Position numbers and translations under genes: made by a program
Assembly: GCA_035541755.1 (NCBI GenBank)
Contig: DATKMQ010000164.1
Span: 1 to 39,234 of the forward strand
Reading direction: 5' to 3'
DNA from: Syntrophorhabdaceae bacterium
GTDB taxonomy: Bacteria; Desulfobacterota; Syntrophorhabdia; Syntrophorhabdales; Syntrophorhabdaceae
DNA: 39,234 nucleotides
Shown: piece after piece, positions 32,921 to 35,730 of the stretch
How the letters are laid out: each line of letters begins with the position of its first letter
Position numbering within the stretch: the first letter of the stretch is position 1
Notes under the pieces: generated by a model
The model's database searches: none
What the model saw: only the letters and a program-made list of their open reading frames with translations
Told to the model about the DNA's origin: nothing

Positions 32921-32983
32921 GACTTGCTAAAGTGCCGGCGCATGCTTATCAATGAAAGAGTTACCCGAAAAAGGAGGTTAGGC

Positions 32984-33442
32984 ATGTCAAAGCTAATAGA
33001 AACGGGGAGCAAAGCAAAAGCGTTCACGTTAAAAGATCAGGATGATAGGGAATGCAGGCTTTCGGATCTTACAGGAAAGAAGGTACTTCTCTCCTTTCAT
33101 CCCCTTGCTTGGACCAGCGTCTGCGCGGAACAAATGAAATCGTTGGAGGCGAATAAGGAGGCGTTCGATCGGCTGAATACAGTGGCCCTGGGTCTGAGCG
33201 TCGATACCGTGCCTTCCAAGAATGCATGGGCAAAAGAGCTCGGCATTCATAATACCAGGCTGCTTTCCGATTTTTGGCCCCACGGAAAAATAGCCAAGGC
33301 ATACGGCATATTCAGAGAGGCGAACGGTTTTTCCGAGCGCGCCAATCTCATTCTCGACGAAAAGCAGAGGGTTGTTTTCGTCAAGGTCTATCCCATTCGT
33401 GAGTTGCCGGATATAGCGGAGATCCTGAAGGCCCTTGCGTGA
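32984..33442 (+). CDS. AhpC/TSA-family peroxiredoxin
   Basis: A 152-residue thiol peroxidase that removes peroxides. The peroxidatic Cys47 lies in HPLAWTSVCAEQM, which keeps the Pro-xxx-Thr-xx-Cys active site, and RANLILDEKQRVVFVKVYPI carries the conserved C-terminal strand. The only other Cys is Cys24 (DRECRL), not at the position of a usual resolving Cys, so it may act as a 1-Cys or atypical enzyme. ATG 32984 has AAGGAGG upstream; the frame up to 32924 is less likely. Peroxide defence suits a strict anaerobe. Confidence 0.9.
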   Translation: MSKLIETGSKAKAFTLKDQDDRECRLSDLTGKKVLLSFHPLAWTSVCAEQMKSLEANKEAFDRLNTVALGLSVDTVPSKNAWAKELGIHNTRLLSDFWPHGKIAKAYGIFREANGFSERANLILDEKQRVVFVKVYPIRELPDIAEILKALA

Positions 33443-33510: not shown

Positions 33511-34572
33511 TCACACGATAAAACACTGGGGGTCTTCTTCGAGCAGATCACCTCTTCCCTGAGACAAAGACCATGCATAGGCGATGGCCCGGCAACCCCG
33601 GCAGTTTGACCACCGGGCGCAGGTGCGGCATTTCCCTTTATAAAGGCCTTTATTTCTCAAGGCATTGAGCACGTCTGAGGCGGCCCACACCTGCCTCAGC
33701 GGGTCTTTCAGTATATTACCCACGGGGATACGTAGCCTCCTGCATGGCGTAATTGTTCCGTCAGGAAGTAACGTCATTCCCGATACACCGGCGGCGCAGC
33801 CGCCGGACGGAAAAGCATCCTCCCTGTCATCAGGCGGCGCGTGTCTTAACTGCGATGCGAGTGGATCGCCCGTTACGATTTCGAGACCAGGGGTTTCAAG
33901 GGAAAATATCTCCTCATAGACCTCTTTAATCCGTTCTCGCGTGAGCATTCCGGATAACAGATTGAGCCCTCTTCCGAAAGGGACGAGTCGTGAGAAACCG
34001 AGATAGGGAACACTGAGGCTACCTGCGAGGGCTATCATGTCCGTGAAATAATCGACATTCAGTTGAGAAAGCGTAACATTCAGCGTGACCTGTACACCGG
34101 CGTCTGTCAGATACCGGACGCCCTTAAGCGCCGACGAAAAGCTCTTTTTTCCCCGGATCGATTCATGCACGGGTTCGGGCCCCTCAAGGCTCACCTGTAC
34201 CCCTCTGACGGGCGTGTCCGCGAGCATGCGGGCCTTATCGCGGTCTATCAGGGTCCCGTTTGTCAGTACGGATACAGCGAAACCGGCCCCCGCTACCTTT
34301 TTAAGGATTGACGCGAGGTCGCCCTTAAGAAAAGGCTCACCGCCCGTGATACTGAAACTCGTCGAAAAGGGTATTTCATAGGTATCTGACCAGTACCGGA
34401 TCGTGTCAGAAACAGTCCCTATGGTCTTCCCGATTGCGTCTGCGCTCATTTCCAGGGGCACGTCCTGTCCCTGGTAACAGTGCGCACACGTGAGGTTACA
34501 TCGCTCGGTAAGATGCCATTGTACGAAAAAATCGAACGTATCTGTTGCGGTATTTGTCTGGCTATATTCCAT
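33511..34572 (-). CDS. Radical SAM / SPASM enzyme, candidate peptide maturase
   Basis: A 353-residue radical SAM enzyme. Cys25-xxx-Cys29-xx-Cys32 (ERCNLTCAHCYQ) binds the SAM 4Fe-4S cluster, and SITGGEPFL binds SAM. The C-terminal SPASM domain has CAAGVSG, TPCRRL, the cluster-binding KCRTCARWSNCRGC and a last Cys in DPQCFIV, for auxiliary clusters. SPASM enzymes modify peptides (PqqE-like, RiPP maturases), proteins, or haem precursors (NirJ/AhbD). The CRGCRAIAYA ending also recalls the latter, but no haem genes are near. A 34-residue peptide gene lies directly upstream on the same strand, separated by two hairpins, which favours peptide modification. No clear ribosome site precedes its ATG. 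Confidence 0.85.
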   Translation of the reverse strand: MEYSQTNTATDTFDFFVQWHLTERCNLTCAHCYQGQDVPLEMSADAIGKTIGTVSDTIRYWSDTYEIPFSTSFSITGGEPFLKGDLASILKKVAGAGFAVSVLTNGTLIDRDKARMLADTPVRGVQVSLEGPEPVHESIRGKKSFSSALKGVRYLTDAGVQVTLNVTLSQLNVDYFTDMIALAGSLSVPYLGFSRLVPFGRGLNLLSGMLTRERIKEVYEEIFSLETPGLEIVTGDPLASQLRHAPPDDREDAFPSGGCAAGVSGMTLLPDGTITPCRRLRIPVGNILKDPLRQVWAASDVLNALRNKGLYKGKCRTCARWSNCRGCRAIAYAWSLSQGRGDLLEEDPQCFIV

Positions 34573-34588
34573 AGGGCAAGATAATTAA

Positions 34589-34623
34589 GACAGGCAGGAA
34601 AAGCCGAGCCTTGCCTGCCTGTC
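34589..34623 (-). other. Long hairpin between peptide gene and radical SAM gene
   Basis: GACAGGCAGG (34589-34598) pairs perfectly with CCTGCCTGTC (34614-34623), 10 bp, loop 15 bases. On the - strand it is followed by TTAATTAT rather than a T-run, then the radical SAM ATG 17 bases later. It could be a partial terminator, RNA processing site or mRNA stabiliser. Confidence 0.6.
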
Positions 34624-34630
34624 AGAGATG

Positions 34631-34650
34631 AAGTTGCAGACCTGCAACTT
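34631..34650 (-). other. Perfect palindrome just after the peptide gene
   Basis: AAGTTGCAG and CTGCAACTT, 9 bp arms with two bases between (34631-34650), about 17 bases after the peptide stop. It makes a tight hairpin in the mRNA and may protect the 3' end of the peptide message. Confidence 0.6.
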
Positions 34651-34667
34651 TAACTCTTTCAGCTCTT

Positions 34668-34772
34668 TCACTTGAGGCATTTTTTACCGATATCCTTTCC
34701 CAGGGTCTTCTTGATTCCATTCCAGAACAATGCCTCCTTTTCGGCCAACTTCCTGTCTCTTGGTTTCTGCAT
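34668..34772 (-). CDS. 34-residue basic peptide, candidate RiPP precursor
   Basis: A short gene on the - strand: ATG at 34772, TGA at 34668-34670. The product starts MQKPRDRKLAEKEALFW and ends NGIKKTLGKDIGKKCLK; it has 11 Lys/Arg against 4 Asp/Glu, a single Trp17 and a single Cys32, and no signal peptide. Expression signals are excellent: AAAGGAGGTG seven bases before the ATG and a near-consensus promoter 52 bases upstream. Two hairpins follow and then the radical SAM/SPASM gene. Small size, position and strong expression relative to the enzyme fit a precursor peptide, with the N-terminal part as leader. I do not recognise its family; a regulatory leader peptide is the alternative. Confidence 0.65.
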   Translation of the reverse strand: MQKPRDRKLAEKEALFWNGIKKTLGKDIGKKCLK

Positions 34773-34824
34773 GATTTTTCACCTCCTTTCCTGCGATATT
34801 TGCCGATATGAAGATGATAAGGAC

Positions 34825-34853
34825 ACTATAAGAGCGGTAAATAGAAAAGTCAA
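34825..34853 (-). promoter_or_regulatory. Sigma70 promoter for the peptide-radical SAM unit
   Basis: On the - strand, TTGACT (34853-34848), exactly 17 bases, TATAGT (34830-34825): 5/6 at each box. It predicts a leader of about 45 bases ahead of the strong ribosome site. Confidence 0.75.
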
Positions 34854-35048: not shown

Positions 35049-35151
35049 GTGAAGAGCGTGCACACATATTCTAAGAATCAGCGAAGAATGCTTTTTTCGT
35101 AGCGCTTCTTAAGCGCACTGAGTGGCGAAAAGCACATATGGACCGGCTCAT

Positions 35152-35730
35152 ATGAACACGGACCCCCTGAAGGACTATATGAATCTGCGTCAATGGGTTG
35201 ATGGCGAAGCAAATCGGCTCGTGACCATGCACGGTGGAAACATAACCTGCCATCGGGGTTGTGATGGATGTTGCGTGAACCTGACGGTCTTTCCCGTCGA
35301 GTTCTTTGCCATAATGAGCGAGATGAAACGGGCCGGGGTGCATGCTGAGAAGATATCCTTCGATGAGATTGCTCCCTGCGGTTTTCTCCACGAGAGGATC
35401 TGTCGCATCTATCCCTATCGCCCCATCATTTGCCGCACCCATGGACTCCCAATACTTTTCATCGATGATTCTTCCGATGAGCCGCGGTGGGATGTATCAT
35501 ACTGTGAATTGAATTTCTCCGCATCTGACGAGACCGAGTTCACCGGGGACATGCTCCTCGACGTCGAACGGATCAATGCCGAGTTAAACCGGATCAATCG
35601 TGATTTTATCGTGTCGGTGCCAGATAAAAAATATCAGAGTCATACGCGAATCCCCTTGAGGGAACTCTGTTCCGCAAAGAAAGGATCCCTTCGGCTCTTG
35701 AACGGACCTCATAAGATAGAGGGTCCATGA
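35152..35730 (+). CDS. YkgJ-family putative zinc/iron-chelating protein
   Basis: A 192-residue protein with the CxxxCxxCC-type motif of the YkgJ family: HRGCDGCCVNLTVFPVEFFA near residue 37, then CGFLHERICRIYPYRPIICRTHGLP and YCELNF, so five to eight Cys are placed to bind a metal or an iron-sulfur cluster. The function of the family is not established. Start: ATG 35152 is chosen; an in-frame GTG at 35122 is possible, and neither has a good ribosome site. Confidence 0.8.
   Translation: MNTDPLKDYMNLRQWVDGEANRLVTMHGGNITCHRGCDGCCVNLTVFPVEFFAIMSEMKRAGVHAEKISFDEIAPCGFLHERICRIYPYRPIICRTHGLPILFIDDSSDEPRWDVSYCELNFSASDETEFTGDMLLDVERINAELNRINRDFIVSVPDKKYQSHTRIPLRELCSAKKGSLRLLNGPHKIEGP

Follow-up and report, generated by a model that had tools for sequence, protein, structure and literature searches.

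In a 39,234-nt stretch of DNA from a Syntrophorhabdaceae bacterium (contig DATKMQ010000164.1 of assembly GCA_035541755.1), hereafter called the window, we found that a small gene upstream of a radical SAM/SPASM enzyme gene very probably encodes a 40-residue peptide with two selenocysteine (Sec) residues at recoded UGA codons. Because the frame contains two in-frame UGA codons and is followed by a selenocysteine insertion sequence (SECIS)-like element, the peptide is predicted to be a selenoprotein. Comparison of relatives makes it highly likely that the peptide and the enzyme are functional partners. The pair probably constitutes a system resembling those of ribosomally synthesized and post-translationally modified peptides (RiPPs), in which the enzyme would modify the Cys/Sec tail of the selenopeptide. 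The features of the system are as follows.

34650 to 34772, minus strand: predicted selenopeptide gene, 40 codons and a TAA stop
34668 to 34670, minus strand: UGA1, predicted Sec35
34659 to 34661, minus strand: UGA2, predicted Sec38
34631 to 34650, minus strand: SECIS-like stem-loop AAGUUGCA-GGUC-UGCAACUU, with a perfect 8-bp stem touched by the TAA stop
33511 to 34572, minus strand: radical SAM/SPASM enzyme gene, 353 amino acids

The original prediction, made from the window alone, described the gene as a 34-codon open reading frame at 34772-34668 on the minus strand. Its position and signals stood, but its end very probably does not: the last codon is a UGA that is most likely not the true end of the frame. 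The frame that runs past Lys34 reads TGC CTC AAG TGA AAG AGC TGA AAG AGT TAA and terminates with the TAA at 34652-34650, and its translation with UGA read as Sec is MQKPRDRKLAEKEALFWNGIKKTLGKDIGKKCLKUKSUKS (40 residues). For comparison, 84,980 species genomes were scanned, which yielded 469 relatives of the enzyme, and the best 80 were kept. The 74 relatives of the peptide referred to below are the distinct peptide sequences encoded upstream of the enzyme; since they are akin to one another, their counts are not independent events. Both UGA positions are TGA in all 74 relatives, and two in-frame TGA codons are present in nearly all homologues. The terminal stop, located at the third to fifth codon from UGA2, is TAA in 32, TGA in 29 and TAG in 13. 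Codons between and after the two UGAs differ mostly by synonymous changes (GGC/GGT/GGA, AGC/AGT/TCC and AAG/AAA). In two divergent homologues (G247 and G310), UGA1 is replaced by a Cys codon, which is a classic Cys/Sec pair; no Cys codon was seen at the UGA2 site among the homologues. The genome G247 carries two enzyme-peptide pairs (L182:1760-1900 and L183:1480-1620), whose tails are CLKC-KS-U and CLKU-KS-TAA and both of which have the stem-loop.

At the position of the SECIS-like element, 68 of the 74 relatives have a stem of 6 bp or more, compared with 13 of 14800 shuffles. The stem covaries: the loop-adjacent pair is C-G in 38 relatives, T-A in 21 and A-T in 13, and an alignment-based count agrees. 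It starts mostly 8-12 nt past UGA2 and 17-21 nt past UGA1, and the loop is GGUC. The window stem-loop has 14 bases, GTTGCAGGTCTGCA, in common with the SECIS of Escherichia coli fdhF (K-12 record), where they lie at a similar distance from the UGA. Searching Rfam with the window returned nothing. Support for the stem is comparative and not energetic, because the energy in single-sequence folding of the window was not unusual (z -0.18). The genome containing the window (G000) carries selA, selB and tRNA-Sec. Formate dehydrogenase was checked as a second selenoprotein in this genome and had no internal stop. Linkage of the peptide gene to selB, 3.5-5 kb apart in G043 and G044, was considered and is not general.

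The peptide frame is under strong purifying selection, far from chance, with a ratio of non-synonymous to synonymous changes (pN/pS) of 0.10 in 30 independent pairs of relatives. E13, W17, C32 and K39 are invariant among 32 diverse peptides, as are the two Sec positions; the consensus around the invariant E and W in the N-terminal part is KEAxFW. Thus, of the residues that had been expected to be constant, Trp17 and Cys32 are so, whereas Lys21/22 vary. An overlapping frame MPQVKELKELKLQVCN (34680-34585) also seemed conserved; we regard it as a by-product, since it is broken in L012, L015 and L019, where the stem-loop is shifted. The gene is accompanied by the following signals.

34825 to 34853, minus strand: promoter TTGACT-17-TATAGT of the peptide gene
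34779 to 34788, minus strand: ribosome-binding site AAAGGAGGTG of the peptide gene
34589 to 34623, minus strand: second hairpin GACAGGCAGG...CCTGCCTGTC between the peptide and enzyme genes, a possible attenuator

The promoter agrees with the consensus at 10 of 12 positions, in keeping with the near-consensus promoter and 17-base spacer originally described, and relatives have similar boxes upstream. The AAAGGAGGTG site and the enzyme frame (34572-33511) likewise lie where they had been placed. All 63 relatives examined for a ribosome-binding site have one before the peptide gene, compared with 21 of 63 before the enzyme gene. A terminator-like hairpin occurs between the two genes in 14 of the 63, where 3.2 would be expected; a stricter scan of the window did not pick up the second hairpin.

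The peptide gene is directly upstream of the enzyme gene in about 70 of the best 80 loci. In the family of the source organism, enzyme orthologues are present in 15 of 39 genomes, and a nucleotide pattern built on the two-UGA tail matched once in each of 12 of these genomes, all of them enzyme-bearing; its reversed control matched nowhere. In a survey of 395 genomes of its phylum, with the enzyme counted as present at E < 1e-90, the peptide was found in 15, the enzyme in 16 and both in 13. The two peptide-only genomes are cases of short contigs in which the start of the enzyme is visible behind the peptide. In the three genomes with the enzyme alone, the profile had overlooked divergent peptides encoded immediately before it. 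In a second phylum, entered via a Nitrospirae genome, the peptide is present in 58 of 396 genomes, as a single copy in each; the pair spans Thermodesulfobacteriota and Nitrospirota. No peptide stands beside the enzyme in nine of the 80 loci with a contig long enough, and eight of the nine genomes concerned encode it elsewhere, each time with two TGA codons. This persistence of the pair even when unlinked is strong evidence for a functional link. Loss of selB does not account for the absence of a peptide next to the enzyme: selB is present in most of the genomes concerned, which encode the peptide at another site, and G022 has selA. The original prediction, that a conserved gene for a peptide had escaped calling and belongs with a radical SAM/SPASM enzyme, is therefore borne out by co-inheritance and by the pN/pS value. 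Two outcomes that it had named as counter-evidence, enzyme orthologues lacking the peptide and a non-conserved frame, did not occur: enzyme relatives have the peptide, and its frame is strongly constrained.

The enzyme matches the Pfam models Radical_SAM (76 bits) and SPASM (35 bits), and its orthologues are 51-67% identical. The radical SAM motif CxxxCxxC is formed by Cys 25, 29 and 32, and the SPASM part has seven Cys residues (259, 277, 315, 318, 324, 327 and 350), a pattern which, judging by known SPASM enzymes, would imply an auxiliary cluster that has an open site. The enzyme scored far under the cut-off of each of the best 25 NCBIfam models: 148.9 bits for the top model, AhbD (cut-off 500), 145.7 for the GeoRSP radical SAM model (cut-off 400) and 137.7 for NirJ2 (cut-off 500). 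Among solved proteins, SkfB and PqqE come closest to it by profile, and the RiPP maturases SkfB and SuiB by fold; the structure model is of moderate quality (mean predicted local distance difference test score 72.6) and poor in the SPASM part.

About 20 of 80 loci have a YceI-family gene close to the enzyme, directly downstream in most. Where the peptide is unlinked, a YceI-like gene, assigned by the start of its sequence, follows the peptide in three of eight genomes (G044, G045 and G047); YceI may thus be a third component that goes with the peptide and not with the enzyme. The YceI-family genes have no evident signal peptide (L142:6225-6785, L145:8798-9328, L146:1915-2439, L098:5062-5595 and about 20 other loci). 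The other neighbouring genes are lineage-dependent: a PEMT/ICMT-like membrane methyltransferase gene adjoins in 11 loci, and thiol peroxidase, peroxiredoxin, rubrerythrin or pyridine nucleotide-disulphide oxidoreductase genes are neighbours in single loci. The window itself has a convergent peroxiredoxin-like gene at 32924-33442. A redox role of the pair is a reasonable guess. MqnC/CofH-like radical SAM genes of the menaquinone pathway type lie downstream of the enzyme in L072, L099, L100 and L102, and together with YceI they hint at a quinone link. Behind the lone selenopeptide gene of G043 (L141:8976-14375) lie genes for an ArsS-type radical SAM/arsenite methyltransferase fusion and an aquaporin-like channel, and selB. 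A divergently oriented gene at 35122-35730 in the window encodes a small protein whose putative zinc/iron-chelating domain has the pattern CxxCxxCC; in relatives no link to the peptide was seen. The ABC-2 exporter 2 kb away, originally proposed as a speculative partner, is not conserved as a neighbour in relatives.

We propose the following mechanism. The stem-loop would direct Sec insertion at both UGAs to yield a small selenoprotein, in which the N-terminal part is likely an amphipathic helix and the C-terminal tail is C-x-x-U-x-x-U-K-S. The enzyme would recognize the N-terminal part, where E13 and W17 are invariant, and a radical derived from S-adenosylmethionine together with the open-site auxiliary Fe-S cluster may oxidize the Cys/Sec tail to form, for example, a selenoether or thioether. 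Crosslinks at Trp or a thioether at Cys had been suggested originally; the two UGAs and the SECIS-like element, which were missed then, move the likely site to Cys/Sec. Either the whole modified peptide or a fragment cleaved from it would then function intracellularly, probably in a redox capacity, and a cytosolic YceI-type protein would be its frequent companion. What the sequences themselves show is that the predicted recoded frame is conserved and followed by a SECIS-like element, that the host has the Sec machinery and that peptide and enzyme are co-inherited; we infer the action of the enzyme on the peptide, the type of bond and the redox role. There is about an even chance that the pair represents a new type of selenium-containing natural product, or of peptide cofactor: a genetically encoded peptide with two Sec residues, matured by its own enzyme and put to redox use in anaerobes of two phyla together with a cytosolic YceI-type protein.

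Several observations weigh against this interpretation. One divergent G247 paralogue has TAA at the second UGA site. G045 and G054 carry the peptide and selA and gave no selB match at the threshold used. No peptide was found in G042, and the G022 assembly has the enzyme and selA and neither peptide nor selB. The latter (L013 and L185) is either an incomplete assembly or a case of an orphan enzyme. In some genomes the peptide and enzyme genes are unlinked, which is unusual for RiPP clusters, and no peptidase, protease or exporter is among the recurrent neighbours of the pair. A peptidase or exporter is common in RiPP clusters and is not required in every system.

The main rival explanation is that the selenopeptide is a finished product whose CxxUxxU tail serves as a redox or metal/Fe-S site, the peptide being an electron donor, chaperone or cofactor carrier of the enzyme and not its substrate. 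The spacing of CxxUxxU would be natural for three ligands, as in CxxCxxC of ferredoxins. CxxU and UxxU are Sec-related redox motifs (PMC13188914), and the redox genes that adjoin in single loci fit as well. By itself, however, this explanation leaves the constant co-inheritance of exactly one SPASM enzyme unaccounted for, and most SPASM enzymes that are paired with small peptides are maturases. We consider it unlikely. It is quite improbable that the peptide is a functionless, selenium-sensing leader, in which passage of the UGAs requires Sec-tRNA and thereby controls the next gene. Two UGAs and a SECIS-like element shortly before the enzyme gene, at times joined by a terminator-like hairpin, would suit such a leader, but in eight genomes the peptide gene is not followed by the enzyme gene, the spacing between the two genes ranges from 67 to 392 nt in relatives, and selection is strong, with the invariant E13 and W17 far from the UGAs.

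A genuine stop at UGA1, with the conserved 3' stretch being only structured or protein-binding RNA, is more improbable still. The stem-loop is highly conserved by itself, and in the E. coli selAB operon a SECIS-like element lies upstream without recoding. Against this stand the lack of TAA or TAG at either UGA in the 74 relatives, the synonymous changes and conserved terminal stop of the extended frame, and the two genomes with a Cys codon at UGA1. Finally, it is scarcely conceivable that the enzyme is a haem-pathway protein of the AhbD/NirJ type and the peptide incidental, a relationship that had been named as a possible refutation. AhbD is indeed the best NCBIfam model, but the score of 149 bits is far from its cut-off, two other proteins of the same genome score 442 (AhbD) and 591 (AhbC) as partial matches, and the peptide is co-inherited with the enzyme. 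Maturation of a selenopeptide by its partner enzyme is thus the reading that we prefer.

Neither NCBIfam nor Pfam has a model for the peptide, and weak matches of single peptides (for example QmoC, 0.00097; SkfF, 0.043) were taken as chance. None of the 119 prokaryotic selenoprotein families in a 2026 review corresponds to it (PMC13188914). It would be a new selenoprotein family, doubly missed by standard gene calling, being short and cut at a UGA. Its presence in 58 of 396 genomes of one phylum and 15 of 395 of another indicates that it is widespread and not a one-strain curiosity. UxxU selenoproteins such as the Prx-like oxidoreductase, metal-binding NF041115 and FmdB families also have a Sec pair three residues apart, but they sit in larger, unrelated domain families, unlike the mini-peptide of the window.

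PqqA/PqqE and mycofactocin MftA/MftC likewise combine a small intracellular peptide with a SPASM enzyme, but they lack Sec, and the window enzyme scored 94.5 of 381 bits with the PqqE model and 109 of 265 with the mycofactocin model. SkfB is its best sequence match, and SkfB and SuiB are its best PDB fold matches, though both are larger and only 15-20% identical to it. To our knowledge, the substrates of SkfB and SuiB contain no Sec. PapB, a SPASM-type, thioether-forming ranthipeptide maturase that is not among the best 25 NCBIfam matches, makes a selenoether from a Sec-substituted substrate bound at its auxiliary cluster (PMC10470005). Its natural substrate, however, has Cys. This precedent suggests that the window enzyme may perform chemistry on the Cys/Sec tail; Sec could bind the SPASM auxiliary cluster, which makes natural selenoether chemistry directly testable.

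The closest known parallel is the selenobacteriocin system SbtA (TIGR04081)/SbtM (TIGR04082) of thio(seleno)oxazole RiPPs, which also joins a two-Sec peptide to a radical SAM maturase; the two Sec residues of SbtA are given in Table 1 of PMC13188914, citing Lewis 2021. The motif of SbtA is SGUG, whereas that of the window peptide is CxxUxxU, and none of 32 peptides matched TIGR04081. The window enzyme scored 134.3 bits with TIGR04082, against a cut-off of 350, and left the first ~200 profile positions uncovered. These comparisons point to an undescribed selenium peptide pathway, although an earlier mention is possible, for example in the SbtM literature or in Haft & Tolstoy 2025. If our interpretation is true, this would be the second natural pairing of a radical SAM enzyme with a selenopeptide, after SbtA/SbtM.
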